Assembly (NCBI GenBank): GCA_002189035.1
Contig: CM007989.1
Coordinates: 8,103,501 to 8,167,500 of the forward strand
Direction of reading: 5' to 3'
Origin: Utricularia gibba
Taxonomy: Eukaryota > Streptophyta > Magnoliopsida > Lamiales > Lentibulariaceae
DNA length: 64,000 nt
Shown: positions 1,654-61,869 of the stretch, in pieces
Position numbering within the stretch: position 1 is the stretch's first letter
Layout: each line of letters starts with the position of its first letter
Program-made: the position numbers and the translations under genes
The notes under the pieces: model-generated
The model's input: the letters and a program-made list of their open reading frames with translations, nothing else
Told to the model about the DNA's origin: nothing
Databases searched by the model: none

Positions 1654-4177
1654 ATGATTGAACTACTGGTTTTTTCGTTTACTCTACTGGCCCATGTCAA
1701 CAATGGTTACGCTGGAGTGACTAGCACCTTTGTCCGCACAGTGTGGCCGTCTGATGACATTCCTCTGGACAATGAAGTTTTCAGAGTCCCTGAAGGTTAC
1801 AATGCACCCCAGCAAGTAAGCATGCTTATCATTTTCTTATATAATCTCCAAGCAGCTACATAAATCTTGTTGGTTTTGCATTGTCTTTAGTTTCTATGTG
1901 TCCAAAAACGGACAGGGATTATGATATGTAATTGTTTTTTTTTGTTTCTTTATTTGTAATTTCTAGCATGTGTAACATCAAAGCCCTGTTACGGTCATGA
2001 ATTCATAAGTTCTATCCCATCATGCATTCGTCAGGTTCATATTACACAGGGAGATTATGATGGGAAGGCTGTTATAATCTCATGGGTAACCCCTGATGAA
2101 CCCGGTTCAAACAAAGTTCTCTATGGATTGTCCGATGGAGAATATGAGTTCACTGCCGAAGGCACAGTCCAGAACTACACATTTTATCAGTATAAGTCTG
2201 GATATATTCATGAGTGCCGTGTTGATGGCCTTCAGGTAACGAACTATATGATGTGAGATGTATGAGTGACAGTTAACATTGGATTCCATAACATAAGATT
2301 GCCACAGAGTTTTGCTGTTGCTGTTTTTTTTTTCCCCGTGTGGGGAGAATCAACATTTCTTTTTTTTTTTTTTTGCAGTATGAAACAAAGTATTACTACA
2401 AAATTGGGGATGGCGATTCTGCTCGGACATTTTGGTTTCAAACACCTCCCAAGGTTGATCCAGATGCTTCTTACGTTTTTGGAATTATTGGTGAGCCCCT
2501 TCACTAGCTTAATTTCTTCTTGCCTGACATTTCTAGTGGTGAGCATTCTGCAAGCGTGTGCAAACCATGTAATCAATTACAATGGCTACCTGTTGATATC
2601 AACGATGATCTTGAGTTGTTACTCATTTTTTTTGTTATTAAGATTAATATAGATTATAGCACATAACTGTCTTTTAAACATTTTTGTAGGTGATCTTGGT
2701 CAAACATTTAATTCTCTATCAACTCTAGAGCATTATATGGAGACCGGAGCGCAAACTCTTCTCTTTGTTGGAGATCTTTCATATGCTGATAATTATGGAA
2801 ATAACGATGTGGGTGTACGTTGGGACTCTTGGGGTCGTTTTATTGAAAGAAGTGCTGCATACCAACCTTGGATATGGACAGCTGGAAACCATGAATTAGA
2901 TTTTTTCCCACATATGGTATTTGTTGCTCGTCAATATGAACTTAGACATTTCCTCTTGATTATGTTATTTGATGCTGTCATCTTCTCCCACATTTCTACA
3001 GGGAGAGGTTACACCTTTCAGAAACTACCTTCACAGATATCCCACTCCTTACCTGGATAGTGGAAGCACCAGTCCTCTCTGGTATGCAGTGAGGCGGGCA
3101 TCAGCTCATATTATTGTGCTATCCAGCTACTCTCCATTTGGTAATTTTTTTTTCTCTTTATTTCTGTAAAAAATTATTTTGCCGCCGATTAGCAATTTAC
3201 ACATGCTAGCTTGAATGAGTGTTATTTCTCCCCTTATATCTGTAACGCATTGCACATGTACTTTATCATTTTGTCAGTGAAGTATACACCTCAATGGAGG
3301 TGGCTTCAAGAAGAGTTGAAGAATGTCAACCGGGAGAAGACTCCTTGGCTGATTGTGTTAATGCATGTACCGCTTTACAACAGCAATGATGCTCACTTTC
3401 TGGAGGGGAAAGCATGAGAGTTGTGTTTGAAAGCTGGTTTTGCTACTATAAAGTTGATGTTATTTTTGCTGGCCATGTCCATGCTTACGAACGATCAGTA
3501 AGGCTGACCCCTCAAGTTTTCTATTCTAATGTTTTTCCAAGTCATAGATTTACGAAATATGCAATGCTTCTTGTGTCAGTATCGAATCTCAAACATAAAG
3601 TTCAATGAATCTTCAAATCCGGTTCCTGACAAATCAGCTCCAGTCTATATTACTGTTGGAGATGGAGGAAACCAGGAGGGTCTTGCTGAAAGGCAAGTTA
3701 ACATTTTTTACTTCATAAGTTCCCTATTCCTTGTCTTTGGGAGGAGTCAGATTTCTCCAATTCTTGTGCAGATTTCGAGACCCGCAACCGGAATTCTCTG
3801 CCTTTCGTGAAGCCAGCTATGGGCATTCCACCTTGGAGATAATAAACAGGACTCACGCCCTTTACCATTGGAATAGAAATGATGATGGAACGAGGGTGCC
3901 AACAGATTCATTCATCATACACAACCAGCACTGGTATGCACCCAAAACCATTCTTCTTTGAACAGTAAGTATATCCAGAACATTCAAATCAGGCATCTTG
4001 CGATGCAATCAGGAACGACAGCTCTGCCAGGTTTCATCGGCTCGCTCATTGCATGCTGACATTGTTTTTGGACCGTGATGTTGGTGCAGGGGAAAGAACC
4101 GCCGAAGAAGAAAGCTGGAAAGGAAGCACCTCCTCCACTCAGTCATTACCGGCTCTGCTCAAAGCCATGGACTCTGA
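1654..4177 (+). CDS. PAP26: Purple acid phosphatase, PAP26-like (frame broken in exon 6)
   Basis: Exons: 1654-1815, 2035-2235, 2379-2490, 2690-2916, 3002-3140, 3278-3497, 3580-3692, 3772-3933, 4090-4177; about 474 residues once the break is bridged. This is a secreted or vacuolar metallophosphoesterase that frees phosphate from organic esters. A signal peptide covers residues 1-20. All metal-ligand blocks are present: GDLG (about 159), GDLSYAD (186), GNHE (224), VLMHVPLY and GHVHAYER. The frame breaks in exon 6 at 3405-3408, where GAGGGGAAAGC reads into a stop; one more G would restore EGESMR, the usual family sequence, and make the exon phases close. Intron 7 starts with GC (AG|GCAAGT at 3693), required by phase. 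The start was chosen for the clean signal peptide; an in-frame upstream ATG at 1564 is less likely. PAP26 is the major phosphate-starvation acid phosphatase of Arabidopsis. Confidence 0.9.
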
Positions 4178-4347
4178 GCAGAGTATGAATGTGAACAAAT
4201 ATACATCGGCCCAAGTGTTCAAGCAACTCACTGTGCAATGGAGGTGCAGGAAATCTCCCAAGCCACATAAGCTTTTTTATTTTCATGCTCTATCTTGTTA
4301 ATACAAGAGACAAATAGCCTTTTAAAGGTGGTTTGATTGTGTTAAAG

Positions 4348-4353
4348 AATAAA
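4348..4353 (+). terminator. Candidate poly(A) signal of the PAP26-like gene
   Basis: AATAAA lies 171 bp after the stop codon, in a T-rich stretch. Position fits a plant near-upstream element. Confidence 0.4.
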
Positions 4354-4870
4354 AGAGCATGTTTGGTAGGCCAATTAAAAATTATTATGATTTCAATTAT
4401 TTGAGTTTAGTTAAACCGTAAGCAGTATTTATTTATGATAGAGTGTTCGATAAATAGAGTGTTTGATAATTGTTTAAAAATGAAAATTTCTCGATAAATG
4501 ATTTAAGTAGAAAAATTCATTTAAATATGAGTTTTGTGGGGATTATATAAATTTATTTATTTATTAAAATCATTGTATTAAAATATTTTGATTTCCAAAA
4601 AAAAGTCACTTCTCAAATGTGGCATAAGATTATGGGAGTTTCTGGCTTAGGGTTTAATAGTCAAACCAAATGCAAAAAAAAAAAAAAAGTTTTTTCCGTT
4701 AAAAAAACAATTTTTTATTATTTTCTTAAAAAGAGAACCGTTTGATTCGGCAACCCCGGCCCGGCCCGAGTAAAGCGCTGCCCTACCCGGTGTGCGATCT
4801 CAAGGCAGGTTTTGCAGTGTGTACTAAACATCACAAGAATTCACGTTACGCGCTGGAGGGAAAGGCACTG
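4354..4870. other. AT-rich intergenic DNA before NAA35
   Basis: Very AT-rich, with A and T runs near 4673-4735. The phrase at 4356-4480 (gtgtttgataat and similar, repeated with variation) looks like decayed mobile-element DNA, but no terminal repeats are clear. The last 100 bp are the likely 5' UTR of the next gene. Confidence 0.35.
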
Positions 4871-7800
4871 ATGGAGGGAAGAGAAGGTGAAACTCCGTTC
4901 ACTTCTTCGATTCCTTCCGGGAGCGACACCGTTTGGGTTGATGTTTCCTCTCTTCTCCGGCGGGCTTGTGATGGTGATGACTGTCCTCTGATTTGCAGTT
5001 CTCGATTGTTGTTACTTTTTTCGTATATATGATACTGTTTTCATTCGGATTGGATGATTGAGATAGTGTATAGCGGGCATTGTTGGTTTAATTTGATGAA
5101 CTCAGTGAAGTTGGTATAATTCGTTTTTATCTGAACGAACTCGTTAAGTAGCAATTTAGTTGGGTTTGATCTCGAGTGGAAATTTACGAGCATCATAGGG
5201 GATGTGATTTCCATAATGTGGATTGTTTCCTTAAATGAAGCTATTTTTTTGAAAATGCCATACCTGAAAGATTCAACCTAATGACATAATTTTCTGTGCT
5301 TTCTATATGAATGACGTGGTTGGTAATTGTCTCTTTTGCTTCTTATTGGTCTGTTGCTTGATGATAACAAGATGTAATTGTTGAAATATCTCAGTGAATT
5401 ACTAGATGGTACCTTACGTCTGCAGATATATTTTCCAAAAGTACTGCTGCATTTACCATTCACATTACGCACTGTCTAATATGTATGCTAGTTCAGGGAT
5501 CATGTTTCTTTTTCCATGTTTCATGCTAATTCAGTATAACATACAAATGCCTTTTTTTCGTGTAATTTCTCTAGATCTTCAAACTGATGAGCTCATAACA
5601 GGCGAGAACTTTAATCTTTTTGCAGCCATGTCAGCTTTAGAGGTATGACCCTTTCATTTTCAATTTTTTTCTGCATTCAGATAATGCTAGCTACAGTTGA
5701 TTTAAAAAAAAAGGCTATACGGAGTTAAATGTGAACGTTCTAATTTGCTTGGAAAGCAAGAACTCATGCCATTGATATTGAAGATACAACTTCATAGCAG
5801 GATTCCATGCAGAAAAGTGAAAATAAGCAGTGTTATGAACTTCTCCACGCCAAGCTAACTAATTTGATGTTATTTTCGCGGACGTTCATAGTTATTCTGT
5901 TTGGATTGGATAATTTTTAGGGGTTTTTTAATATTCTCATGGGATTTAAATTGGCTTGAATAGATCATGGACCCAAAGATGGATTCTGGCATTGTTTCAA
6001 CATATTGTTCAGTGGATGAAGCCATTGAAAATGGTGCTGCCCCTGTTCCATTGAGCTTTGATAGAACACTGGATGTTCAGCGTGTCATTGATATAGTGGA
6101 TCATCTTCTGGTTTGTGAGGTAACGTACATTCACCGTTGGCTAGAACCATTACTTGCAAGACTGGAACTAACTGAACTGCTTGCCGCCCTTCTTTTCTAC
6201 CCCTTTTCAGGCAACTTGGCATAAAGGAGGACCACTAGCACAAACTGTTTTCTCTTGCATCTACCTTATGAGACCTGAAAGAACATCATCTCATTCTCTC
6301 CTAAATTCCTTCTGCCGAGGTATTCGGGTGACCTGCAATGCTGTTGTTTCAGCTGTTTCAGATGCACGGACCAATGAAGTAAAGTACTTAATAGCAGACC
6401 TGCTTTCCTCATTTGCTTGCTTTAGTAAGAGTATGATGATCACTTCCTTTATTTAATGATGTTCTTCCACAGAAATACAGAATTAAAAACTATGGGTTCT
6501 GCTCCGTTGATTAATTGAAAATCATATTATGAGATTTTGTGTACTATGACTATATGATTGAAATGTGTACACTGTTTCTTCAATCTAGAAGGTGTGCATA
6601 AGTATGAAGTGCCCCACTTTTCTTCAATCTTTTTATTTCCACATCAATGTCTCTTGAAAACCCCAAGCTCTTGTATGTGGTTGTGTTAGATGTATAACTG
6701 GAACTAGTAATGTTGCGTTGTAACATATTCATTTAAAACATCAGTCTGATCACTTCCATTATACTCCACTTCAAACAGTGGCTGGCAATAGACTTTATTC
6801 ACCTCTTGATTTTTAGCTTCCTTAATAAAAATTATGCCAACTTTGCTAGCAAATAAATCAACTAGCATCAAAGTTTTGTTTCTCCGAGGATACTTTTCCT
6901 CATACATGTATTTAACATTTATTTAATCAGCAAAACACATGTTTTTTAGGAAGAGGACCTTTTCACAATGGCATATGGTCTACCGTTAAAGGCTGAGGGT
7001 GATGAAAAATGCTTATCCATTCTGCAAGCAGTGGAGGAGACGATTTATCGCCAGTTGAAGGCCAGCAAATCACCTTTTTCCAAGAAGAGGGTTATGTATG
7101 GTACGTAGTCCAGGCATGTTGCATCTCCACTAAATAGGCTCATTTAATGTGAACATTAGAATTGTCATGAAATCAACCATTTTTATGGCAAGCTTGTGTA
7201 CAACATTGGGTATTATGATTTCAGTTACTCCTAAAAATATGCATGTTTGAATCTGATTTCAAGCTCTTATGATCATTCTGTTCTGTGAGGCTTTTCCATG
7301 TAAGTTCTATTTCTATAATTTATTCATTTTCAGTATTTCTCTATCATGAAAGCTGTTCTGCCCCCATTTTTATGTAGTTACTTGCATTGCTTCCCAGTGC
7401 TTGAAGTATCTACTCTCGATGGCCTTTTTTATTCTTTTATTTTGTTGACAACTACTTAATTTAAACTTGCTGGTTACATTACCGATCTTTATGCAGATGT
7501 AGAACCTTTACAGATGGATCTGTATCTTGAAGAAGGTCTTTGCAAATCTATTTTATGCCGCTTACGTTTTCGTAAGGTCCTGCCATTTAATATTTCGAAT
7601 GCAAGTTTTTTTTAAGATAGTGTTTCTCTTTTTTTAGATCATATTCCCTAGATTATCTTCATGACTTGTTGCTTGGCTTATCTTTTTTTCTGTTGCTACT
7701 AGAAATGAATTGTTTCCATCTGAAGTTTAGCATGTCTTTGCTCACAGCACTTCTATCATGTGCTAACTTGTATGCGGAGACCTCAAGGCAGAGGGCTGGA

Positions 7801-10800
7801 GTTGGCTAAGAAGCATATCACTTCCTGTTTATCTGAGCTTGAGTCAATGCTTAAGTCCGAAGATTTTTTGAGCTCCAACTTCTCTCATCAAAATATGGAA
7901 AGTAGAAAAGAGGATAAAACAACTGCATCTGGTTGTCTTCCTGTTGGCTTTGATCCTACACTTAACAGCCGGTCAGCAGCCCCAACCCCACCCCGTGCTG
8001 TTAAACTGCTGAGCTGGAAAATGGTTAGTTTCGTGGAACCAATTTAGGAAATTACGCGATTGGGATTTTGAGCTGAAGAATCATGTTAACTTACCTTGCA
8101 ACAGGCCATACAATATTTCCAAAAGCTTCTGCATGATTTAAATATTGTATGCTCCTGTTCTTTGGATCCTACTCTCGAAGGCGTTTTGCATTTTGTGGCT
8201 GACTTTCAGAAGTCTCAACCAGATTTGGTATCTCGAGCTCATATCCAGGTTAATCTAAGCTCTGTCTCCTTGCTCGATGCTTTCAATTTTCTCAAGGATG
8301 ACTGACCGAACATCAACAAAAGTAAAAGCTAAATGCTTGCCCACTTAGAAGTGATTTCGAATCACTGACACAAGGCTCTGCCTCTAAACAATCGATCCAA
8401 CTTTGCCTGGTTTAGAGGCCATCTTTTTGTGTAGTGTTATAATCTTCTCTTGTTTTCTCATTTCTAGTGTGTCATTTTCCTAAAATTTTATTTGATCCTT
8501 TTTTTCATTAATAATTTTCAATGTTCTCAGTACTCCCACTATGTCACTTTAACTTAGACTAGAATGAATAATCAGTTTTGAGGAAGATTAAAATGAACAT
8601 AGAGAGCTATGGCTATTGGAGCCATGGTGTTGCTCATGAATTACATTCTGCTTTTTGTTTGGGGTATCTCATGAAGCTTTGAGTTTCGAATGTTTTTGAA
8701 AGTCTTTGGTGCCTTATGCCAATTACTATAATACTGATGACAACTTGACAGCTTCTGTTGGTACAAGATGGGAAGCTCTATGGACGTGAATCTATGTTTT
8801 CTGTTATTTGCAATGCTGCCCTCCTACCGGATTGGGCTAAAGGTCATGATATCCAGAGGAATGAATCCGTTAAACACTTAGTGCAGGTGCAGTGCACAAA
8901 TCTTTTTACTGGATTTGAACTCCTATTTTTTGTGTTTGAGCTTGGCTAAAACACAGTTGGTGGGGGACTTTTCCTTCCAAATCAACAATTTAATTCAGTA
9001 AGTGTCTCATTGTGTTTGAAACTGAAATCTGATGAAGTTCATGTTTTGTGAAATGCAGCTGTTAATCGGTATGCTAAGAATCCTCTGCACAAATGTTGCA
9101 TGGCAACGACGTAAACTTGGGAAAATATTACAGGATTGGCGCATAATTTTTCTTCAGGTCACATTTTTGCAATTTTATGTTCCAATTACATCATAGTTCA
9201 CATCTAGGAAAACATTTCTAATCATATACAAATTTGTAAACAGCTGGACCTAGCTTTCAGAAGGGATCTTGGGATACCACCAGCACTTCAACTAATGAAG
9301 TATGTCCCTATGAATTTTATGAACACTTCATCACCTTTAACATGAATACTTTTGATGCTCTCATAATAAGAACAAAATATATTCCGACGAGCATGAAAAA
9401 AAGGCATTTAAAATAAAATAAGGCCTTTTCAGTTTACAATTGTCAATTTTCTTTTTTCCTTTTATCTTGGAAATTTCAGCTCTTCGTAATCCATGTTAGC
9501 AGACTCTTTCTGTAATCCATTCCTTTCATTGCCTATAGACTCTTTGTATGAAGATTTGCAAGCACATCCTCATATGGGTGGATCAGCAAACATATTGGGT
9601 AGCGCTGCGTTTCCTCTTGTTAGGTTTTGAGTTAGAGCTTTATTCGTCTAGTGAATATTGCATGGTGTATTGGTACATTCATATCATCCTCATCAAACTT
9701 GCTGAGAAAACACAACTTAAAATGATGCTGGGCGCTGAGACTTGTGAGCCATTCTTTCTTTCCTCAGTTCTTTTATATATTTTATGTTGTTTTAAGATGA
9801 ATGAACGGTGTTTATACCAATCTATTGTCATTTTGTGCTGCCTCTGAAACAGATCCTCGAAAACCAAAGGAGAAGAGAGATTTGGTCAAATTTTCAGGGA
9901 AGGACCATCATGTCTACCCCGTGGTTTTATTGCTACAGTGTTATATTCATGTAGCAGAAGGTCTCATGAGGGTAAACCAACTCGCAGTGCTCATGTTTTT
10001 ACATTTTGATCCCAAGACTCTTCCTGACAAGCTTTGATATGTCGGGAATGCAGATTATCATCTGGAGTAGTTTAATTCTGAAGAGCATGCACATTTTTGG
10101 TTATCTACCTGCACCTAAGATCCCTCATTTTTCAATATTTCAGATGCTTGCTTCCTTGAGGAACGAAAACAAAATGTTCCTTTGTTTCGGCCCATTCAAC
10201 AGCGAAAGGGAGGTACTCTCTTCTCTATCTGAAACATTGCCATATATTGGCGCTTAGAACATCCTTCAGTCTTTGAGGCCGAATGGAAAATGAACTCCTC
10301 CCTCCCTAAGAATCGATAACCCATTTGATCCAGTACTCCTATCATGATACTTACAATATTCTGTGGTTTCCCCAGAGATTCATGCAACACTTTGAAATGC
10401 TACAAAAGGCTTGCCTTCCTGATCATGCATCATACTTTTCGTTCACGGAGTCAACCGCTCATGCTCGCTTCAGTGTAAGCAACTATGAAGTCCCCTTATT
10501 TTTTTTCAAGCAAACATTTAGCTATGAAAACTTGCTCCACGTTGTGTGTCCCTGAGCCTTGCCTGCAAACAATTTACAAATTGTTTCATTTCGGCAGACT
10601 GCATCTACTTATAGCTGCTTCAGAGATGCTCAGAGGATCGCCAAGGATTTGCGAGGTTATTTTTCGAGCGATCCCGATAAAATGGCAGAGATACGGCAGT
10701 TAGAGCAGGTGGCGGAACACAACAACGTGGCCCTAAACCTGCTTTGCCGGTTAGGGACTCTCGAACCATCGCTTAAAGTTTCATTCGAATTCACGCACCA

Positions 10801-10837
10801 TCCACACTTCGCGACTGCTTCTGTGAAGAGGTCTTGA
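4871..10837 (+). CDS. NAA35: N-alpha-acetyltransferase 35, NatC auxiliary subunit (MAK10)
   Basis: Exons: 4871-4973, 5575-5642, 5964-6119, 6211-6378, 6950-7100, 7497-7576, 7748-8023, 8105-8248, 8752-8886, 9059-9157, 9244-9299, 9539-9743, 9853-9971, 10144-10212, 10376-10474, 10598-10837; about 722 residues, close to the 725 of human NAA35. The product anchors the NatC complex that acetylates N termini of Met-hydrophobic type. Family blocks are clear: [20 protein letters not shown] near residue 45, [46 protein letters not shown]-like [13 protein letters not shown], and a C-terminal [14 protein letters not shown]. In exon 11 the strong donor AA|GTATGT does not match the phase of exon 12. One extra G in GGG at 9271-9273 fixes the phase and turns the exon end into [10 protein letters not shown], so a lost base is inferred. 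In Arabidopsis, MAK10 loss impairs photosynthesis. An ATG at 4742 lies in frame upstream but gives no family-like residues. Confidence 0.9.
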
Positions 10838-15200: not shown

Positions 15201-15315
15201 GATGATGATGATGAATCCACACAATCCATTCGGAAATCCGTTCTCTGCCCCTGGCCAGCCCCATGCTTCCGCCATGCCGGTTCATGGCTACAATCCGTAT
15301 CCTGGCTTCATTTAG
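12223..15315 (+). CDS. ANTH-domain clathrin assembly protein (AP180/CALM family)
   Basis: Exons: 12223-12321, 12541-12610, 12687-12784, 12933-13074, 13153-13253, 13342-13425, 13509-13559, 13669-13734, 13854-13919, 13998-14081, 14147-14224, 14352-14522, 14608-14683, 14768-14877, 14974-15315; 545 residues, all phases consistent. The N-terminal ANTH domain (about 25-290) binds PIP2 and builds clathrin coats at the plasma membrane or trans-Golgi. Typical blocks are [47 protein letters not shown] and [18 protein letters not shown] Pro/Glu-rich linker follows, with APDLL near 370, then an Ala/Gln/Met-rich tail with two NPF motifs (NPFGNPF) for EH-domain partners. Length and order match Arabidopsis At5g35200 (544 residues as I recall). 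It lies on the same strand as NAA35 and converges with NOT10. Confidence 0.93.
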
Positions 15316-15476
15316 TGGATTGGAGTGTTATATTTTTTTTCTTGAGCATAGTAGACATGCATACATGGTGGGCGCATCTAGATCATGATTTGCGAAATCC
15401 TTGAGGTAGATGATTGTAACATAATGTGTTGCTGCGGTATGGAGCTTCAAGAATACACAAGATTGATTCATTCATG

Positions 15477-15482
15477 AATAAA
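15477..15482 (+). terminator. Candidate poly(A) signal of the ANTH gene
   Basis: AATAAA 162 bp after the stop codon. Confidence 0.4.
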
Positions 15483-16964: not shown

Positions 16965-19900
16965 CTAGTTGATGGGAAGATACCTGATAGGTCCATGCTG
17001 TTTCAGCTTCATGAGAGCATCTTGTATCTTGCCACACTTGAGATCCAAGTAAATGGCGGTAACAATGACTCGTGGGCTGTTGGGCATATCTGCCAGTGCC
17101 TTCATTGCAAGAACGTGTGCACGCTCAAGGTCGCCGAGGAACGCAATGTTGACAGCATAGTTTGCACAGAAGATTGCATGTGCCTCTTCTGGACTGGGGA
17201 ACCAACTCTCCCGTGGTTCATTGGCTACAGTTGCAGGATTTGAAGTTGATGATTCCAAGTCATTTGAATCTTCGCTGTCAACGAACTTCTCAGCCATCCA
17301 CTTCTCTGACAACCATTTTTCGCAGTCATCTCGGGTGCGTGGAAGTTCAACATTGTTCCCATCAGATATATATGTCATCATATAGTTAGCGGCTTCGGTT
17401 GGTCTATTCAGAAGGCATAAAGCTTCCGCTGCGTACATGTTTCCCATAAACATGTACATTTTGGAGCACTCTGGAAGTTCCAATAAAGACTTTGCTCTTA
17501 AAAGTGCCTCCAAAGGATTGCCTAATCCCAGCTCCACATAAGCCAAATCAGCTAGCACGGCTTGCGTAACTAATTGGATCTCCTTCAAACGAATATACTC
17601 ATAGTCAGAGATAGAATTCTGAAAGGATGAGGCCTGGTTGATTGTCTTGTCCTCCTTCACCTCCCCGTTTGAGTTGCTTTTACGTGAACTGGATTCCAAT
17701 GGCAATTCCTTGAGATCATCACCAATGGCTTTGCTGATGTCAGTACCCAGCGGTTGTCGTTCAGAGCTTGGTTTTAGAACAGATCTTGAAAATTTTGCCT
17801 CCGAAGACTCTAACAAAAACAAAGCATTGAGAAGACAGCGGCGGGCACAAGACAGTGATAGATCAGACTGTTTCACACCCCGAGAAAGGAATCATTCCTT
17901 TCAACATTTTTTTTCTGGCCATTGGGCAAAATCCCAGATATGAAAGCAAGCTGCCTCCATTTTCCTTTTCCAACTGGACGGACGTCAATAAATCTTTCAT
18001 TTGCAAAGCAGTTGGGTGTAATCAATCCTTTCTCTAGGGCCATCAGACAACATTCAGCAATTCTTAGCCACAAAAGAGGCCTGTTGTAAAATACCAAACT
18101 GGCTTTCCGGAAGCAGCGAGCAGCTTCATCAGGTCTACCACATGCCAAAGAATGAAGACCACAATTATATGATATCAGAAGAGATTTATCCTGAGAGATA
18201 GCAAGGAGCTTTTGAGGTTTGTCCCTCTGACGTGGGCTGTTCCTCAAGGCTTTGGAGAAAAATATGCCTGATACGTGATGCTTCCCTAGTTGGTGATAGA
18301 TGCACCCAAGATCATTGTAGTACATGCTTAAAATTCCAAGCTCTGTGGGGTTCATCGATGCCATAAGAAGTTTTATTGCCTTACGATAGTTCCTGCGGGC
18401 AAACTCAAGCTCTGATTTCAAATAAAAAGCTACAGGATTATCTTTCCCCCGAGATAAGTTCATGGCCATCTTGACTTCACGCTTAGCTGCCCTAAAATTC
18501 CGAGTGAGAAGGAAAAGGCGAACCTTGTAAAGATGCAGTCTAAGCCTCATATCACTGAGCGATGCGGAGTCCTCTGCTTGGCTTCTTGTGGGGCCGTTAC
18601 AAGATGAAATTGTGGAGCCTCCCTTAGGATCCTTCCCAGTAATGTCCAGTGAGGATAACAGCTGCAATGGTTCATCTTCAAGCTCTTCCTCCAGTAAACT
18701 CCTGCTTAAAGAATTTTCTAACGAGCTAGAGGAAAGGACTTGTTCAGAATGCGGTGAATCAGGAATAGGTCCGGAGTTTGATACAGAAGCAGTATTCGAT
18801 ATGAAATACGATTTCTGTGCGAACAAGGCATTATCTCCCTGATTTGAGAAATTAACGACACAAAACGCTTTCTCCATATAGTTCAGAACATCCTGAGACA
18901 AAAAAAAAAAAAAAATCAAATAAATATATCATGACACCACAAATCTAACACATGGCAAAAATGAAATTCCCCAATGTCATCAACTTCTATTTAATTGTTT
19001 GGACATGTAATGGCTAGGCATTTTTTCATCCGGGCAAAAGGCCACGATGAACAACTAATCATGCTACATGCTCGAAATAAACGTCATGTTGCACAATGAC
19101 CCCTCACGTGACATAGAAAATTCCAACCTGAGACTCCTCTTCCTCCGAAGGGAACATAAATTAAAAATGTGAGACGAGAATTAGATTTCATTCATGTGAC
19201 CAAATCTGTTTCAATAGATGCCAGTTGAAAATCAAAACCAACACCACAAGACTCGCAACTTACAGCACATCTCGATGCATTTTGGCAAATCAATGCGACA
19301 TCCAGCAGCAAAAGGCATATCCGAAGTGCTGTCCCCTGCACCATGAGAATGTCAGGCAAGGGATACCCAAACTCAAGATTCACCACTTTTGATCAGAAAA
19401 TTAACATGAAAATACCTCATCAATAGGTTCGATGTTCTGATACAATGCATCCAAAAATAAGAAGGATTTTGAATACTCATGAAGATGAAACCATGTAACA
19501 GCCTGCAAATGGAACCCATCCACACAGTGTAAGAACCATGACTCAAAGAGTAGGATAAAGAACCAGGGGTAAAAAATACATACAATGTTGAACATTATGG
19601 CAGTATCGATCCCATTGCTATAAATGGGCGATGGACAACAAATCTGATCTAAAACATTAGAATCCCCCTTGGTATTATCTATAGGCTTTTTCCCGTCGCT
19701 GTTACCAGCATCCACGTGCTCTCCATGTGTATGCACAAGCTCATCTGTCCTTTTCTGAAACACAATAACTTTATTATTAAATGATAAATCTGATGCATTG
19801 TCACTGAAAAGGTGAACAAAGTCAAAATATATGCATTCGCATCCATATACAATACTGAAACTTACATGAAACCAAAGAGAGATGTGGATAAATTCGTTAG

Positions 19901-21716: not shown

Positions 21717-24219
21717 TCATAACCGGATCTCCACACCGTGGAATCTCTCATCTTCACGGGGCATCTCCGCGAGGTTCAGCGTCACCAAACCAGAAGCTGC
21801 ATCGTACTGAAAGTCCACCGCTTTGCCTCCCAACGTGCACTTTCTCGGTTTAAGAGATGAGTAAGCACCGAGGAGGCCGCACCCCTTCACTTGCAGGGAT
21901 ACGACTGCCGCACCCTCTTCTTCATTCTTGGCGTCGTACCGAAGGTCTTCGATGGCGCCGCCGGCGTTGTACATCTGGATGAGGCCGAAGGGGGCGAAGC
22001 TGCAGCCTGGTGCTAGTTGCTTGATCGGAGTGACGGTGAAAAACTCGTGCTCCAACACCTTCAGGGAGATGGGGAGGACGGCGCTGTCTGGGAGAGTGAT
22101 GACCTCGCCGCTTCTGTGGGAGTAGAGGGCGACACTGAGGTCCCAGTTGGAGTCGGGAGCAGCGTCTCCGATGAGATGCACATCACGGCCTCTGATGTGG
22201 CCTGTAAGTGCCCCGGAGTTGGTTTCGTGGAAGGTGTTCTTCCTCTCGATGCTGTTCCATGCCGCCCCTTGGCAATTGTACACTGCTAGAGCCCCTGTGT
22301 GCTTGTTCATGTTCCATATCTTCAGCAAACTAGAGAGCAGTATATACAGTTAGCATCATCTTGCATTCACGCATCACTTGGAAGGAAAAGTGCTCACCTG
22401 ACACCATCTCTGGCTGGATCAGAGAAGAGGCAATCCGCGGTGGGTCTGCCGGGAAGACGGGCCCGGAGGATGGAACCATCGGGGAGAACAAGCTTCCTCA
22501 ACAGATCAAAGTTGTGTTTTCCAGGTGCGTCACTGTTGCACAGAATGCAGTAATCATCAGAGTAGCTATGATATCATACAACGCTCATGGTGTTAAGAGG
22601 AAGGATTTCTTGCCTAACGTAAACAGGGCCACCACTGATAGCTCGAGCAGAGGCATGGTACTCTGCTGCAGGATGGAGAGAATGGAACATATCCCAGTCT
22701 GGCAACATCACTTCCCCAAGGAAAATGCTGTTGTATGAAACGGAAGCGATGTGGATTGTGTGCGACATGGGGTCTCTCGGATAAAAATCATCAGATGCCC
22801 TTACAATCCCAGTTTGTTTTGAGCTGTTTCAATCAATACCCATATAAGCAAATCCGGACTATAGCTGTGAGAAGCAGGACACAAGTAACCAAGACTTACC
22901 AGTAGAGGGACTCAAGGTTATGGCTCATGCAAGCGATGCAACCATTATCAGGGAAGTTTCTAGCAACAGAGGCATCAAGGGCCTGGTGATACTGTCTTGT
23001 TAAAGTTACTCCGCCACCAAGGCCAGCTCCAAGAGTTTCCAATATGCACTGTACATCAACCTTCACACCATCAATACCTGCAGAAGCCAAGTAGCTGTGC
23101 AACTCATTGTAGAACTTGTAGGCATTTTTGGGGTTCACTAGCCCCAATCCTTGAATGGCTAGAGCATCGGTTTTCCACCCTGGTTCATTTGCCATCACCC
23201 TTTTGGAATCTGAGGATACTGCATAGCGGATCCATAATCCTCCATCTCCTTCACACCTGGCCTTACTCCACCCCAGTAACCAGTTATCGCGTGCCACACG
23301 TAAACATACTTCAATCCATACTTCTCCTTAGCAATGCTTGCAATGTTCTTGATTCCTAGAGAAGGGTCTTCTTTCTTTTGAAATTTGGAATTCTCCTTGA
23401 TCCCCGTCAGCCTCAATAAGCCTGGCTGATCAACATCTCCATTTAAGAGCTTTTTATCTAGTGACTTTTCATCCGATCCCACTGATTGCCAGCCATCGTC
23501 GATGATGGCAAACTTGGGTGGCGTTCTTGCTGCGTTAAGGCTCTCGAGACCAGCTTCCACTCCTTCTTGAGACACCTCTTGGTAGAAAGCATCCCATGTG
23601 CACCACCCGAAGTAATCAACAATCCCTGGAAGTTTCTTATCGCTCCTCAGCCTGAACGTCCCGAGATGCAATTTCACGGCCTTCATCGCCTCATGAATCG
23701 TGGAGTAAGGATCTGTTCCAGCGCTGATATACACGGAGTGCGTGAAAGAGGACGCCTTTACATTAGCGTCTCCACTTTGGAGGCACAATTCGAGCTCATC
23801 CCTGTCGTTTCCTTGTAGACAAGCCTTGAAAGGCCCTTCGATCAGAGGCAAAAACACTGTGTAAACAGTTTTGTTATCCTCTTCATCAGCGCCGGTTTCC
23901 AAATCAGATCCCTGTCTCGATTCCACGAGCAGAAACTGTGTTTCGAATGGGATGTCTCGTCCCTTAGTCCCCATTTTCTGAGCCATCCACCATAACTTAA
24001 ACCTGAAACAAGCTAAAAATCTCACATTCCTGAGATGTCCCAGAGGAACGACGTGACTGTTGCTGTCTTGGTCAAAAATTGCACCCAGAAAGACCCTTCA
24101 ACAGGACCCTCCGCTGCGCCGGAAGCCGCGATCACATTATCAGGAACATGAGTGAGTACTGTATTGCCTTTCACCACAAGCTTCTTCTCCGCGATCCGAA
24201 CCGCAGGCGTGATTGTCAT
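21717..24219 (-). CDS. Galactinol-sucrose galactosyltransferase (raffinose synthase) family protein, GH36; two frame breaks
   Basis: Exons in transcript order: 22900-24219, 22614-22823, 22398-22532, 21717-22329; about 759 residues after bridging. Members move galactose from galactinol to sucrose or act as alkaline alpha-galactosidases in the cytosol. The family blocks are present: [28 protein letters not shown], the nucleophile block KVDVQ (Asp about 389), RASDDFYP with the acid/base Asp, and SGGPVYVSD. Two breaks occur. At 24088-24092 SFWVQF replaces the expected SFLGAIF frame (one base short). At about 23203-23206 CCAAAAGGGTGATG lacks one G before VMANEPGWK. Intron 2 uses a GC donor (AG|GCAAGA at 22613), required by phase. 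A 219-bp intron interrupts the 5' UTR. The closest relatives are the RFS2/DIN10 type. Two breaks could mean a pseudogene, but all exon junctions and catalytic residues are intact. Confidence 0.88.
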
Positions 24220-24712: not shown

Positions 24713-24719
24713 TCCACGC

Positions 24720-43108: not shown

Positions 43109-43109
43109 A

Positions 43110-45076
43110 ATGAAGATTCATAATTACATTTGCTGTTTGGGGGTTGGGTTTCTATTGCTGCTCGCTTTTCTGTCGAGCGGGGAAGCTTTGGAGGTGAAGG
43201 TCAGCGGCAATGGTGGCCCACTCACGGCGGAGGAGGTACGGTATATAAAGCGGAGGCAGCTACTTTACTACTTGGATGAATTTGGGGACAGGGGGGGATG
43301 TTTCTGTTGATTCTTCTCTCTGGTTCGAGAATCAGAGGCTTCGATCTGCATACACTGCTTTGCAGGCGTGGAAGAAGGCTATTCTTTCAGATCCTTATAA
43401 TCTTACTGAGAATTGGGTCGGATCCGATGTGTGCAACTATACAGGAGTTTTCTGCGCTCCGGCGCTTGATGACCCGTCGGTGCGTACGGTCGCCGGGATC
43501 GATCTCAACCACGGTAACATTGCTGGGTATCTGCCGGAGGAGTTGGGCCTTCTCGTAGATCTCGGGCTTTTCCACATCAATAGCAACAGGTTTTGCGGCA
43601 CGCTTCCTGAGAAGTTCAGGAACTTGAAGGTACTGTTTGAGTTGGACTTGAGCAACAACAGGTTCGCCGGGAAGTTCCCTCGCGTCGTTTTGAGTCTTCC
43701 GAAGCTGATTTATTTAGATATTCGGTTTAATGAGTTTGAAGGAGCTGTTCCCCCGGAGCTTTTTGATAAGCCCACCCTGGATGCCATTTTTATCAACCAC
43801 AACTGGTTCAATTCTCCGCTCCCGGATAATTTGGGAAACTCGCCGGTCTCGGTGATTGTGACGGCGGGAAATGGGTTCCACGGCTGCCTTCCGGCGAGCG
43901 TGGGTAATATGTCGAGACTGAATGAGATTATATTGATGGAAAGTGGGTTGATGTCTTGCTTGCCGCCGGAGATCGGGCTGCTGAAGAATGTGACTGTGTT
44001 TGACGCTAGTTTTAACAAGCTGGTGGGGCCGTTGCCGGAGGCAATCGGTGGAATGGTGAGCTTGGAGCAGTTGAACGTGGCTTATAATTTGCTGTCGGGG
44101 GAGATTCCTGAGAGTATTTGTCAACTTCCCAAGCTCCTGAATTTCACTTTCTCCAATAACTTTTTCACCGGGGAGCCGCCGGTTTGCTTGGCCCTTCCTT
44201 CCGTTAATGATCGACAGAATTGCCTGCCGGAACGGCCGGCGCAGAGGTCCGCGTCGCAGTGCAAGGCGGTTTTGTCTAGGAGGATACATTGTGGCGCTTT
44301 CAAGTGCAAGCGGTTTATTCCCCGTTATCCCCTGCCGGCGCCGGTTTTATCACCACCACCACCATCACATTCACCACCACCACCATCACCTCCTCCGCCG
44401 GTTTATTCACCACCACCACCATCACCTCCACCGCCGGTTTATTCACCACCACCACCATCACCTCCACCGCCAGTTTATTCACCACCACCACCATCACCTC
44501 CACCGCCAGTTTATTCACCACCACCGCCGGTTTATTCACCACCACCACCTCCCCGCCTGTTTATTCACCACCACCACCTCCCCGCCTCCGCCGGTTTATT
44601 CACCACCACCACCATCACCTCCTCCGCCGGTTTATTCACCACCACCGCCGGTTCTATCTCCACCACCTCCTCCTCCGGTGCATTCGCCTCCACCGCCAAT
44701 TTATTCACCACCCCCACCGTCTCCATCCCCTCCACCGCCCCCACCACCTCCGACCCCAGTCTATTATTTCAGCTCGCCACCACCTCCCCCACCTTTTCCC
44801 TCACCGCCTCCTCCGTCACCGATCTATTCATATTCATCACCACCACCACCGGTTCATTCTCCTCCGCATCCTTGTGTAGAACACCCGCCGCCACCACCAC
44901 CTCCGCCCGTCATTTATAAGCCTCCGCCTTCGCCGTCACCACCACCACCATATTTGTATTACTCTCCTCCGCCACCATCTCCAACGCCTCCACCGCCAAC
45001 TCCAATATTCGTGGGGCCGCTGCCTCCTGTCATCGGAGTATCCTATGCTTCTCCTCCTCCACCGCCCTTCTATTAA
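43110..45076 (+). CDS. Leucine-rich repeat extensin-like protein (LRX), three frame breaks
   Basis: Intronless; about 655 residues when bridged. LRX proteins sit in the cell wall and bind RALF peptides, linking wall state to FERONIA-type receptors. A signal peptide covers residues 1-26. The N-terminal block LTAEEVRYIKRRQLLYYLDE is followed by WVGSDVCNYTGVFC, about ten LRRs, and a Cys-rich hinge. The extensin part is Pro-rich, built of SPPPPSPPPPVY repeats, and ends in PPPPPFY. Three breaks need bridging. In the G7 run at 43291-43297 the frame changes between DEFGDRG and GDVSVD; the expected length is 9 or 6 G. At 44551-44554 and at 44580-44583, CCTCCCCGCCT lacks one C each time, so the frame slips out of and back into Pro-Val-Tyr repeats. 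The frames used are consistent with these three events in order. No intron could explain them. Tyr in VYSPPP is the crosslinking residue of extensins. Confidence 0.9.
44401..44508 (+). repeat. 36-bp tandem repeats in the extensin region
   Basis: Three near-identical 36-bp units coding VYSPPPPSPPPP, with decayed copies on both sides (about 44340-44960). Unequal pairing or slippage can change copy number and also hampers assembly. Confidence 0.85.
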
Positions 45077-49760: not shown

Positions 49761-50041
49761 TGGCAGGGAGCAACAGCAAAGCGTGTCTCACCAATCTCAC
49801 TCAACTCATCATCCACAACAACTTGGTGTGTATACCTCATACCTGCTGCGCCTCAGTGTAATTCAAGAAGAAGCTTCAAAGATGTGAACATGGAGTCCAT
49901 GAGGTTAGGTTTCAGTAATTTTTTTTTTCTTTTTTGGGTTGATTCGTTTTTCTGCGTCTGTTATAGTGTGGAATCCTGGGTTTCATTTTTCTCTGTTATC
50001 ACCAGCTTGTAACATCATCACCTGAATTGCTGCCTTGTTGC

Positions 50042-50047
50042 AATAAA
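50042..50047 (+). terminator. Candidate poly(A) signal of AGD14
   Basis: AATAAA 282 bp after the stop codon, at the border to AT-rich intergenic DNA. Confidence 0.35.
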
Positions 50048-54649: not shown

Positions 54650-54724
54650 ATTACTGAGGCTGAGGCAGCTTGAGTCTTCTAGTTTCTTTTTCCTTCTGTT
54701 TCACCTTTTCCACTTGTTGATGCA

Positions 54725-54730
54725 AATAAA
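54725..54730 (+). terminator. Candidate poly(A) signal of MRS2
   Basis: AATAAA 76 bp after the stop codon. Confidence 0.4.
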
Positions 54731-55136
54731 ACTAGCTGCATCGTTAGTTCCCCCTCCGCCGCTTCTGTTCAGTGTACGTGATACTGATGGGTGTACGTTA
54801 ATACTAGTTTCGTACATCTTGCTTTCATGTGTATTCATCGCCACCGCCGCACCGGTAACACGAAAAGCTGCCGGCGTAGTTCAGCACCGCGCCGGAATAT
54901 TCCATGGAATAGTTCAACTCAAATTCTGTCCAAGCTACGCAAACATTAGAAAGTACTATATTACCCCCCTTATAGAGATATTAAAGCTTTATTTATTTAT
55001 TTATTTGTTCACCTGAGAAAATAGAGGGAATCCATCTGAAGCTAGGGATTCATTTTCTTGCCTCTCTGGGTTGCCGAGTGCCCGGAATCTTCGACTGGCT
55101 AAATTTTTGGGCTTTTGAGGTAATTGGTAGGGGGAA
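54731..55136. other. Spacer between MRS2 and the Alba gene
   Basis: A short spacer with the MRS2 3' UTR, a TTTA run at about 54988-55007, and the Alba leader. No other gene. Confidence 0.4.
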
Positions 55137-56389
55137 ATGGAGGAAATCACTGAGGGGGTGGCGAATGTCAACATCTCCGGAGATTCACAGAGAAACAGAA
55201 TCCAGGTTTCCAATACCAAGAAGCCTCTATTCTTCTACGTTAATCTCTCCAAGGTATCGTTTTTTTTTTATTCTGAGTGTTTGCCTTATTCCCTTTGTGC
55301 ACAATTAGTTTCGGAAACAGTGTATTGTGAAGTGCATAAGGGTTTGAATCAGACAATGAATTGGGAACTGATATCTGGATACATTGGAAATGGCAGAGGT
55401 ATATGCAGCAGCATAATGAGGTGGAGCTTTCCGCCCTTGGAATGGGTACGTACATGTTTTATTCTAGGGTTGTGTGTCGTCCCTAATCCCTATAGGTAAA
55501 TTTGGATTATTTGCGAGGTTAATTGTTTTTCCAGAAGTAGTTTTTTGTTCGGCTCTCTGGTTGTGGGAAACTTTTAAATGATGAAAAAAAAACATTGAAT
55601 TGAGTGCATTTTGAATAGCTTTGTAAGTTTCCCCTATACTGCGGTAGTAGCTTAATGTTCGATTAATATGACGATATAGCTTAATCTTGATGGAAGTGTA
55701 TGAGAGTTTCGCTTTGCTTATTGCTGTCTAGGAAAGCCTAGTTCTTGGCTGAATGCCGAGAGTCCAAAGTGGGAAAAGCTTGTTTGCTACTGTATTATTT
55801 TTGTGTCTGAATTGAATCGAGTTCTCAATCATCCTGAGGCATTTTTATGTACATTTTTATTGCTTATTTCTGATGCTTTTCGTTATGTTACTGGTATAGC
55901 TATTTCTACCGTTGTGAGTATTGCTGAGATCTTGAAGAATAATGGGTTTGCCGTCGAGAAGAGTAATGCTCTCTTCCTTCACTCTCATTCTTATTATACA
56001 AACAGTGAAAACGCTAAGTAATTAGATGGTGCATCCTGTATACTTACAGTAAAAACATTGCGATATTGCAGAAATTATGACCTCAACTGTTGAAATCAGA
56101 GATGGGCCCAGAGGAAGACCCATCTCAAAAGCCAAAGTAAGTTTTTCAGTGAATATCCTCCATAAACTGTTTCTTTTGTTCTATTTCTATTCTGCTTGCT
56201 CCTCTTGAGTTATCGATCCATTAGGCATTCGTTCCGTATATTACACCAACCGTGCCGTATTGCCTATCACCTTACTATGGCCTTATCATTTACTAGATTG
56301 AGATTGTGCTTGGGAAGACTGAGAAGTTCGATGAACTTATGGCTGCCGCTGCAGAGGAGAGGCCTGGAAATGATGATGAGCAGAGCTAG
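55137..56389 (+). CDS. Alba-domain DNA/RNA-binding protein
   Basis: Exons: 55137-55253, 55397-55445, 55900-55962, 56072-56136, 56297-56389; 128 residues. A single Alba domain fills the protein. Blocks in order are NRIQVSNTKKPLFFYVNLSK (residues 20-39), RYMQQHNEVELSALGMAIST, VVSIAEILKNNGFAVEKKIM, RDGPRGRPISKAKIEIVLGK and an acidic tail. Small plant Alba proteins bind RNA or RNA-DNA hybrids, and Arabidopsis members stabilise R-loops or mRNAs. The closest relative I recall is At2g34160. Exon 3 ends inside a codon (A|AA) that restores the Lys pair before IMTSTV. Confidence 0.9.
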
Positions 56390-57198
56390 AACTCTTCCTC
56401 ATCTCATTGTTTTTATGTTCTTTTCGAGTCTAAAGTCAGTTTTGTTATTGTCGGAGTTTGCTGCATGGTAAAGATCCTTTACCGTACATTTTCATGTTGA
56501 ACCAATATGAACTCAAATCTAGTGTCAGATGGGAAGATTATGCTTAGCAGACTAGATTTCAAATTATTTCTTTCTTACCCAGACAAGTATTGACGATTAT
56601 ACAAGTTGTCTCGCTCTCTACACACGTTTATTGTGTTCTAGTTCTGAAATTTTAATCAAATGTCCGTGTAGAGCTTATTTTTTCAGCATGCTTTGATGAC
56701 AGAAGTGGAAGAGACAGACTCTTCATCTTAGATGCTTTTTCACATTTTCAATGTCTTGTTTTTCTTACATTGAATCTCGCTCAAGGAATCCAAGTTTGCT
56801 TTTTGCTAGAGATTTCCAACTCAAAATTTAATTTTTAGATTTCCCAAAATCTAGTCTTCTACTTACCTTGACACGTGACACGATCTACTAAATCCATTAA
56901 TAATTCAGACACGAAATCGAAACTATGAACTAGAGAAAGGGGTACTTTTGTAATTTGAGGAATCCAGTTGAGCCAGAGGCCAATGCTTGGAAGGAAAGAG
57001 GCAGAGCAGCTGCCATTCAGGAGGTCATTTGTGTGGATAAGAATAAATAGTGATCGTCCTTTTGGAGTCAGGCGACTTGTATGGGGAAGATGGTGATGAA
57101 TTGAAATTGGATCGTGTACGGGAAATCCAGCGCCAACTTTCATCGGTTTTGACCCCCAATTTTGTTCTTTATTTACACTCTTCTTGCTTGCACTCAAC
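56390..57198. other. Intergenic region between Alba and HO1
   Basis: 3' UTR of Alba up to about 56600, then AT-rich DNA. The HO1 promoter is upstream of about 57150. No further gene is seen. Confidence 0.4.
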
Positions 57199-57243
57199 AT
57201 GAGTTTCAGTTTCGCCCGTTTCCTTTCCCTAGAGCGAAGCTAG
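57199..57243 (+). other. Upstream ORF of 14 codons before HO1
   Basis: ATG at 57199 to TAG at 57241-57243, in a different frame, 32 bp before the HO1 start. It matters only if transcription starts upstream of it. Confidence 0.35.
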
Positions 57244-57275
57244 TGTTTCAAGGTCCAGTTTTTATAGTTGAAGAA

Positions 57276-58829
57276 ATGGCTTCTCTACCTCCCACTTCGA
57301 GTCCCTTCACCCTTTCGACGGAGCGTCAATTGTCGCCCTTGAAAGTGCATAAAAGCCTCACCTTTCCATCACCCATGTCGACTTTCTCCCCAAGGAAACT
57401 GAGGATGGTTGTGGTTTCTGCAACTACTGCTGCTGATAAGCCCAAGAAGAGGTATCCTGGTGAGGCGAAGGGTTTTGTGGAGGAGATGAGGTTTGTAGCC
57501 ATGAACTTGCACACAAAAGATCAAGCCAAGGAAGGGAAGAAGGAAACTGTGGGGCAGCCCTTTGCTAAGTGGGAGCCAAGTATCGAAGGGTACTTGAAGT
57601 TTTTAGTGGATAGTGAATTGGTCTATGATACTCTTGAGAGAATTGTTGACATGTCCCCTGAATGTGAGTAGCTATACCCAATTTTTCCATCTATGCTTTT
57701 ATGTACTTTGGATGTATTGTCCTGCATGCGTAGATGGCTATGACCTTTGATCCTGCACTTATAGGCTATTACATGTGACATTTGGTAGGGTAGTACTCTT
57801 TCCGGAGTGCCCCTTTTCTTTTGTGATTTTATAATCGCTGCTCCAAGTTCTGGGACATTAGTCTCAGGCGGTGAGGTGAAAACAAGAGAAGGTCTAGACA
57901 TAAGTTTCTCTTTATCTAACTTCAAATCATTGTATTAAGTCTTAGTTAACTGTTTTTTTTTTTTTTTTTCTTGTGGAATTCCTTCATGGCATGATTAGTC
58001 TAGCCTCATTGAACTCCATGCTACAGATGCTGAGTTTCGGAGCACGGGTCTTGAGAGATCAGAAGCCCTGGTTAAGGACTTGGAATGGTTTAGCCAGAAG
58101 GGTCATGGCATTCCTGAACCATCTCAAGCCTCCATTGACTATGCACAGTACCTTAAGGAGTTATCTGAGAATGATTCTCCAGCCTTTGTCTGTCATTTTT
58201 ACAACACATATTTTGCTCACTCTGCTGGTGGCCGGATGATTGGTAGAAAGGTAATTTTGTATGATTCAGACCTCTCATTCTTGTGAGCATGCATACATAC
58301 AAGTTATACACCCTGTTGAGTCTTCCTTTTTTGCATACTGTTGCAACATACGTAGACACTCATTGAAGCAATTAGTTGCAGTGAGTGAGCCAGTTTTTGA
58401 TGGATGTTGGGAACCTTCGTGTAGTCTGTCAAATGAGATTACCTCTGTTCCCTTGATGGGATTAGGAATGATTCAAGTCTTTGGATGCTAAAAGAAAAGC
58501 AGAATAAACAAAAGTATTGGATTATTTGTGTTGTTGACATGTACCAGGTGGCTGAGAAGCTCTTAAGTGGCAAAGAACTAGAGTTCTACAAATGGGAAGG
58601 TGATCTCTCCCAACTCCTGCAACAAGTTCGTGATAAGTTGAATCGGGTGGCTGAAGTACGAACTTCATTTCTATTCCTCCAAAACTTTCCATTCAGATGT
58701 GTTTGGTGTTTTAACAGATTGTACTGTGTGATACAGGGGTGGACCAGAGAGGAGAAGGACCACTGCTTGGAAGAAACTGAGAAATCCTTCATGTTTTCTG
58801 GGCAGATTCTTCGATTGATATTGTCCTAA
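57276..58829 (+). CDS. HO1: Heme oxygenase 1, plastid
   Basis: Exons: 57276-57663, 58027-58250, 58548-58655, 58737-58829; 270 residues. The enzyme opens heme to biliverdin IXalpha, CO and iron in plastids, the first step to the phytochrome chromophore. A Ser/Thr-rich transit peptide covers about residues 1-50. The catalytic domain has [20 protein letters not shown] with the proximal heme ligand His79, [40 protein letters not shown] (distal helix glycines) and the end [19 protein letters not shown]. It is an HO1/HY1-type (active) member: the heme-ligand His, absent in HO2, is present. Exon 1 ends in T|GTGAGT and joins AT to give Tyr. It stands tail to tail with PERK, with 162 bp between the stops. 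Confidence 0.95.
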
Positions 58830-58991
58830 ACACATGTAACTGCTATCTCCGTATCCAAAATAAATTCCATTGCCACGCACATTAGCAGCACAATCTAGAA
58901 ACCAACCATCTCAGAGTGATTAATCAAAGTAAGAAACCATTCATTGTGTAGACGTTTTGGAACAGTAATAAAAGAATCAATCAGCCATCAA

Positions 58992-61869
58992 TCAGTTAGC
59001 TGCCTTCTCCGTTCGCTTCCCCTCGCTGCTGGATCCAGACGGGTTCAGACCGTACTCGCTCGTCGGATTGCTGTACTGATCACTGCTTCCATATTCATGG
59101 CTTCCCAACGCCACCCTCCTGAACTTCTGCAAGTCTTCGTTGTATTGGGGGGCATCATAGTCTGAGCTTCCGTACGAACTGTACAAGGTGCTCTGACCCG
59201 GACGGATTCCTTCGTTCAGTGCGGATAGGGAGACGTCGCCTTCTAAGGCTCTCACAACCTGTGCAGAAAAACAGTGTCAGGGAACTGTCTTCTCCGATGG
59301 GGAGAACACCTCAGAGGGTAATACATGATACCTGACTCAGCCGCGGCCGCCTCCTTGCTGAGTGCCGGACACAGGCAGCTGCACAAGCCACCATGCGGGC
59401 CATCTCGTTGTGGTTGTAGTTGTTTCCTAGACGTTGATAAGCGAGAGCATCGAAGTTCCCTTCATCAAGTGCTCGTGTAAGCAAAGGCCTAGCCTGCAGA
59501 ACAGATGCATTCCCTTCTCAACAAACCAGTGGAAGAGTTTGTAGTACGTAGAGAATCATCAAAAAGGTTATGGACACGGAAACACACCCAATCCACTAAG
59601 CTATCATCCATGTAAGACTGAGTCGAGTCGACGGGGCGACGGCCAGTAATCAACTCGAGAAGCACCACACCGAATGAGAACACATCGGACTTATCCGTCA
59701 GTTTCCCAGAAGATGCATACTCAGGAGCTAAATATCTAAGTAACAAACGAACATTGAGAAACATGTGCATCCAAGAACTTGAGCTAAGAAATATTGAAGC
59801 AGGTATATCGAACACAAATTCCTCACCCAAAAGTTCCCATCACTCGGGTAGATATGTGAGTATTTAAATCAGAAGAAGATTTTGCCAGTCCAAAATCTGC
59901 AACCTGAGGAAATAAATGATGCTTGATGGTATCGTAGAAGACACAAAGACATGCATCAGACATGCAACCTCGGTGGAAACCTCACCTTGGCTTCAAAGTT
60001 GAAGTCTAAAAGGATGTTAGATGCCTTGATATCTCTATGAATGATTTTTGGATGGCCTGCTCACCAACGACAAATGCAAAACTGAGTTTGGATATAGCAT
60101 GGCATCACTACTAAATATAACCAGTGTGGACATACAATCTTCATGCAGATAAGCGAGTCCTCTTGCAGAACCTAGAGCAATCTTCACTCGTGTTGGCCAA
60201 TCCATTGCAGGTCTTCCCTTTCCTGCAAAAGAGTACCATGTTAGATGCTTCTGATCTTCGGATCCTCCTAAAGAACCAGGTATCTTCATTTTTAGCAGTG
60301 GATTAAACAAAAAAGGACAAGTGAACTGAGCACTAACCATGCAGATGGAATTCCAGCGTGTTGTTCGGAACAAACTCATATACAAGCATTCTCTGGCTTC
60401 CCGAGATGCAATATCCAACTAGTGATACAAGATGCCTATGGTGCACTCTGCTGATGATCTCAACCTCGGCCTGGAACTCACGTTCCCCTTGTCCACTTCC
60501 AGCTTTTAGTTGCTTAACTGCAACCACTTCACCATTTGGAAGCATTCCCTTGTGTACATATCCAAAACCACCTTGCCCGAGGAGGTTTGCATTTGAAAAT
60601 CCATCTGTAGCCACTTCGAGTTCTTCATATGTGAATGTACTCTTTGAAAAGCCTAAAGCCATGCCGGGTGATGGTGGTGGGGGTGGCAGACGGCCTTCCA
60701 CCCCAGAGTAATTTGAAGCAGAACCTCCACTGCTGTTCAAGAAGGGAGGAGGGGGAGGAGAAATCTGGGATGAGGCGGCCTTGATGCCCCTCCAGGTGGG
60801 GGAGATAACTTAGGAGGAGCCATCACCATGTGATCAGGTGGCTGTGGCACGTTATGCTGCCAATTTTGTACTGGAGCACCATATGACTCAACTGGAAGAC
60901 ACAGAAAAAACATAAAATACATCTTGCTCTAACAATTTTTTGGAAAAAAAGATCACACCAATCAGAAAATTGACGGTTCCTTTTAAATTTCTAGCGTTAA
61001 TGGCCTAGTGAATCAAAAGAAGTTCCTTTTTTTCATCCTCCAAGTTTTCTCGAACAGCTAATCACATGAGTCCCCTTCTCCTCCTAGAATCGCTAATGCA
61101 CATAACATCTCAAGTTAAAAAAATGAATCTTTTTCAATATGTAAACCATACTTAACACTCCATCAGAGAACAAAAATTCAGAAAACGGGAGATCAGCTTA
61201 TAATGTAGAAGAATAGAATCAACCAATATGATCAAAGACAGGATTTCGAGTTTAAATCTAGTTAAAATCGGAACCTTTAGGCCCAGGTGGTGGAGGGGTG
61301 ATGTAGTACTCTGATGCTGGTCTTTTTCGCTTCTTCTTGCAGCAAAGAAAAAACACTGTCAAAATTAGCAGAATTGCAACACCTCCGACGGCTACACCCA
61401 CCACCAACCCCGTCGATATTCCTGAGGAATCGCCAGAGGAAGTTGGGGATCCTCTAGTTCCAGATGGCGACGGAGGAGAAACAGTTCTCGTTGGCGACGG
61501 CGGCGAGCCCCTACCGGAGGGCGTTCTAGGGGCAGGCGGCGACCCACCTCCAGAAGAATGTGTAGGGGGCGGAGGAACAACGGATCCAGACGGAGGGATA
61601 GCGCTCGGAGGGGACGAGGAATTGACTGGAGGCGGAGCCGGAGACGGGGGAGAAGGCAATGGAGGCGCCGGCGGAGATACTACAACTGATGGAGGCGGAG
61701 AAGACTCCGGCGGAGGGGCACCAGTTGGAGGGGCAGAGTTCGCCGCAGGCGGCGCGGCCAGCGGCGGAAGCACGACCCCCGGAGCAGGCGGCGTGGAGGC
61801 TACAGGTGGAGGAGCAGTATTATTGGCAGCCGGCAATGGTGGGGACGCTACCGGCGCCGGCGATGACAT
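58992..61869 (-). CDS. Proline-rich extensin-like receptor kinase (PERK), one frame break
   Basis: Exons in transcript order: 61275-61869, 60338-60891, 60136-60222, 59986-60056, 59827-59903, 59588-59735, 59332-59493, 58992-59258; about 653 residues once bridged. A Pro/Ser-rich extracellular part (1-150) contacts pectin in known members; there is no classical signal peptide, as usual for PERKs. A transmembrane helix spans about 153-176, followed by a basic stop-transfer CCKKKRKR. The kinase domain has [29 protein letters not shown] and DFGLAK. Exon 2 breaks between 60740 and 60790. The first frame runs GGASRPPHP and then stops, and the second carries [14 protein letters not shown]. One more C in CATCCCAG (60767-60769) gives [12 protein letters not shown], the likely original. 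The exon lengths fit exactly one lost base. The gene would otherwise be called as two pieces. Confidence 0.9.

Follow-up and report, generated by a model that had tools for sequence, protein, structure and literature searches.

The closest described parallel to the frame breaks studied here lies in PacBio-only assemblies made without short-read polishing, where single-base, run-associated deletions are spread over the whole genome and give rise to false frameshifts and false pseudogenes. Short indels are the known PacBio error profile: in a PacBio-only E. coli assembly at 110x, 1489 small indels were counted before Quiver and 237 after (PMC4046830), and a Quiver-polished PacBio assembly retained 205 residual indels, nearly all of them in G or C homopolymers (PMC4832174). 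Another PacBio study reported its residual deletions at A/T runs (PMC6005640), so the platform alone does not fix the base bias. Nanopore assemblies are alike in that homopolymer-length errors fragment their genes (Kastor, PMC12007338; Polypolish, PMC8812927), but they come from another platform; there, correction cut the pseudogene rate from 23.3 to 5.6%.

The carnivorous bladderwort Utricularia gibba has a PacBio assembly (PMC10663240), with a mean base coverage of ~34x (PMC8333044). Truncated genes of the RdDM pathway have been described in this plant (PMC8333044), which by inference is the same species as ours, and the assembly is probably the same too. A key difference is that the DCL3 truncation is backed by transcripts and 5' RACE; given these checks, it is not explained by a homopolymer artefact on present evidence (PMC8333044).

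Here we analysed a window of 64,000 nucleotides (C1:8103501-8167500, forward strand) from an assembly of 100.09 Mb in 516 contigs, in which six genes lose their reading frame at nine sites. We conclude that these breaks are almost certainly consensus errors of a long-read assembly, not broken genes.

Results

Nine frame breaks in six genes

The window genes were aligned to PDB relatives or to copies from the same genome with a purpose-built frame-aware protein-to-DNA aligner. An earlier note on this DNA had listed nine frame breaks in six genes, eight of them fitting the loss of one base. All nine are present in the letters as given and eight are indeed net -1, the sole exception being a run of seven G in the LRX gene:

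3400..3416, + strand: net -1 break in PAP26 (purple acid phosphatase), with GGGG at 3405-3408; alignment to PDB chains
9262..9275, + strand: net -1 break in a short exon of NAA35 (NatC auxiliary subunit), at GGG 9271-9273 (or 9263-9265)
17878..17884, - strand: net -1 break in NOT10 (CCR4-NOT subunit), with GGGG at 17881-17878; alignment to the C413 homeologue
23196..23203, - strand: second net -1 break in raffinose synthase (galactosyltransferase), GGG 23200-23198; alignment to the C413 homeologue
24092..24096, - strand: first net -1 break in raffinose synthase, GGG 24096-24094; alignment to the C413 homeologue
43291..43297, + strand: G7 break in LRX (leucine-rich repeat extensin), best fit net -2; alignment to the C411 paralogue
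44551..44554, + strand: net -1 break at CCCC in the SPPPP repeats of LRX; three-frame reading
44580..44583, + strand: net -1 break at CCCC in the SPPPP repeats of LRX; three-frame reading
60762..60769, - strand: net -1 break in PERK (proline-rich receptor-like kinase), with CCC at 60769-60767; alignment to the C413 homeologue

Alignment confirmed the breaks of PAP26, NOT10, raffinose synthase (both sites), PERK and LRX G7, while that of NAA35 was established from exon phase and Pfam continuity and the two LRX CCCC sites from frame reading. Against plant purple acid phosphatase chains (PDB 1xzw and 8brn), PAP26 scores 278 when a frame change is allowed and 178 when it is not. With the C413 homeologue as reference, the step in NOT10 falls at 17884-17883, adjoining the GGGG (score 2525, versus 1363 without the frame change), and the step in PERK falls at 60766-60762, adjoining the CCC (768 versus 639). 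The earlier note had left PERK between a CCC and a GGGG region; the alignment bears out the CCC at 60769-60767 and not the GGGG near 60790. Both raffinose synthase breaks were placed against an intact homeologous frame of 472 aa on C413, which runs across the two sites.

In NAA35, the two halves match the Pfam family TPR_NAA35 at positions 89-128 and then, in the next frame, at 136-197, and the PDB NAA35 protein aligns across the joint. Read from the sequence, the exon at 9244-9300 joins its neighbours in phase at both ends only when a frame change is placed within it; of its two GGG runs, the one at 9271-9273 is the likeliest site. LRX is read in frames 2, 1 and 0, in that order, across the two CCCC sites, and in the LRX homeologue the frame continues through the SPPPP repeat region up to the stop. 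The G7 run of LRX, previously considered ambiguous, appears by comparison with the length of the paralogue to be two bases short rather than one; a one-base loss does not fit there, and a net +1 is a possible alternative.

The statement that the other genes of the window are free of breaks holds for the four that were inspected by eye, namely CIPK, an ANTH gene, a heme oxygenase and a 712-aa BED reading frame, none of which shows a break. The window also contains an unbroken run of 22 C (32206-32227), one of many G/C runs of at least 20 in the assembly, the true length of which is doubtful.

A homeologous block on C413

The segment C413:476-554 kb is homeologous to window positions 11-24 kb and 43-62 kb, at ~80% identity, and can serve within the assembly as a reference for gene models. 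NOT10 on C413 is open at the site where the window copy breaks and has a break of its own at C413:543016-543020, where the window copy in turn stays in frame. PERK behaves the same way: its C413 copy is open at the site of the window break and broken at C413:476733, where the window copy is open. If all of these breaks were real, no intact copy of either pair would exist. The LRX homeologue is also broken, within the G-rich stretch of G7.

Frame breaks across the genome

We searched the whole assembly for genes of the GRAS, KCS and HSP70 families and found many that are split at a single point that leaves no space for an intron. The change is almost always net -1 at the 24 junction loci of these families, other kinds being few. 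In the intronless GRAS genes, 20 breaks occur in 47.3 kb of coding matches, or ~1 per 2.4 kb, and the rate in the window is similar (nine breaks in an estimated ~25 kb of coding sequence), and here, as for the G7 site, the earlier note needs correction: the window is no exceptional stretch. CCT, raffinose synthase and RPB2 genes were also searched and were kept out of the rate, since with introns present their junctions are ambiguous. The density exceeds that of the E. coli assembly after Quiver (237 indels) and is nearer its pre-Quiver state (1489; PMC4046830).

The association with runs was measured on the 32 events that have a defined interval, five of them from the window, with intact coding regions of the families concerned serving as the null. 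Runs of at least three G or C are touched by 24 of the 32 events (6.7 expected), runs of at least four by 13 (1.7 expected, p ~0.0005) and runs of at least five by seven (0.4 expected). Events at A/T runs are at expectation, with no enrichment, and some breaks fall outside runs. The breaks are independent of gene function: GRAS, HSP70 and KCS genes and the genes of the window are all affected.

Several candidates were set aside. Six GRAS paralogues are broken at profile positions 131-141, which could have been a common biological feature; four of these breaks coincide with or adjoin C runs (L010, L011, L012 and L014), L009 lies at a GGGG, and L013, which resembles an intron donor, was left out. 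In our own informal reading, the clustering would simply arise where a conserved Gly-Pro-Pro is encoded by C-rich codons. Two net +1 calls (L025 and L031) fall where the sequence looks intronic and were excluded from the count.

A minority of the breaks outside the window may be real pseudogenes. Ketoacyl-CoA synthase (KCS) genes lie in tandem on C413 at 4.94-5.00 Mb; some members of this cluster are partial or carry internal stops, and it probably includes true pseudogenes. An HSP70 gene shows an identical net -1 break outside any run in two contigs (L028, C241:17540-18040; L029, C304:2236020-2236520); the gene may be a true pseudogene, or both contigs may share an error.

Redundant contigs

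Some loci are represented by two contigs, and their comparison offers a way to gauge the consensus error of the assembly without reads. Between C241 and C304 there are zero substitutions over 13.5 kb, and nine runs differ in length by one base (C5/C4, C4/C3, G2/G3, G3/G4 and C1/C2, plus four in A or T runs); neither contig is the shorter throughout, each being so at some of the nine. In the second pair, C316 and C412, the 9.6 kb compared contain seven substitutions along with 13 gaps, C316 being the shorter in 13 of 13. Here a GRAS gene that C412 carries as an open frame of 615 aa is split into 229 + 412 aa on C316, where it resumes at once in the next frame; the split is due to one C fewer, CCC on C316 versus CCCC on C412. 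This has the same anatomy as the breaks of the window, here with its control. Since seven substitutions also separate these two contigs, part of the gaps between them may reflect allelic differences. For window positions 1-20000 and 43001-63000, a DNA search for a second contig of the same locus found only homeologues.

Organelle contigs

On the plastid contig C516, eight reading frames (named by inspection as rpoB, rpoC2, rpoC1 exon, atpA, atpI, rps2, psbB and petB; ~14.5 kb) contain no break; at the nuclear rate, adjusted for the lower number of G/C runs, an estimated ~5 would be expected. Under-calling should become rarer where coverage is very high, and the plastid result would agree with this, plastid coverage being assumed to be high. 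The mitochondrial COX1 on C515 (L087) reads LLLLCCSALVEVG and has the Cys-Cys state, which every Utricularia examined shares with one section of Genlisea (PMC11688529). This cox1 frame continues into a reading frame whose LAGLIDADG-like motif recalls those of group I introns.

Discussion

The earlier note had proposed under-called G/C homopolymers as the cause of the window breaks, and three lines of evidence now speak for it: breaks of the same kind across the genome, the disagreement of redundant contigs, and the state of the homeologues and plastid genes. For the nine sites of the window this support is statistical; direct evidence comes only from the redundant contigs. In the proposed mechanism, the consensus at short G or C runs would often be one base shorter than the molecule, and the loss of one base inside a coding exon would shift the frame while leaving the flanking sequence conserved. 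The plant's own genes would then be intact.

The origin of the data would agree with this. The assembly is most likely the PacBio assembly of Utricularia gibba, to which the Cys-Cys state of COX1 and the ~100 Mb of sequence point, and the published one reportedly amounts to ~102 Mb in 518 contigs. We infer that the platform was PacBio CLR, and modest coverage would presumably be the cause of the under-calling. The lengths of contigs C1, C2, C409, C505 and C507 (8500000, 6192500, 2492500, 3452500 and 642500 bases) are each exactly divisible by 2500, a pattern suggesting that their ends were cut or were polished in chunks.

Real decay, in which independent -1 mutations create pseudogenes, would match gene loss in a shrinking genome: much DNA has been lost in Utricularia, and a few broken members with several stops (in the KCS cluster on C413 and among GRAS and HSP70 copies) may be truly dead. 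As an explanation of the window breaks we nevertheless consider it very unlikely. Decay would be expected to bring stops, larger indels and +1 shifts as well, all of which are rare here. The proteins are conserved outside their breaks, unrelated conserved genes are hit at one rate, and redundant contigs disagree at exactly such sites. Moreover, NOT10 and PERK each have breaks in both homeologous copies, at sites that do not match, and decay would leave the plant with no working copy of the pair. True pseudogenes are recognised by lost constraint, by further disabling changes and by being a dispensable or duplicate copy; what we found instead are conserved flanks and, for NOT10 and PERK, pairs in which both members are broken.

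A slimmer chance falls to allelic or somatic variation in the length of G/C runs, which would make the shorter form real in some molecules. C316 and C412, with substitutions as well as indels, do point to two haplotypes in places, but nine run-length differences with no substitution in 13.5 kb, as between C241 and C304, are not what haplotype divergence would give. An altered Utricularia cytochrome oxidase has been proposed to raise reactive oxygen, with deletion-biased repair (PMC11688529). That part of the G/C-run deletions should be real, in a lineage that loses bases from G/C runs so fast that many genes are broken in allelic or somatic forms, seems to us just as improbable. Programmed -1 ribosomal frameshifting or transcript slippage could restore the frame, net -1 being a direction that a ribosomal -1 shift can restore, but the probability is close to negligible, as an in-frame X XXY YYZ heptamer is absent at the six window sites tested and the break sites differ between homeologues.

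Under-calling of G/C runs in the consensus would have consequences for how gene content is read in this plant. With breaks as dense as ~1 per 2.4 kb of coding sequence, many of the long genes would seem disrupted, and claims of gene loss or truncation made from this assembly alone are suspect.
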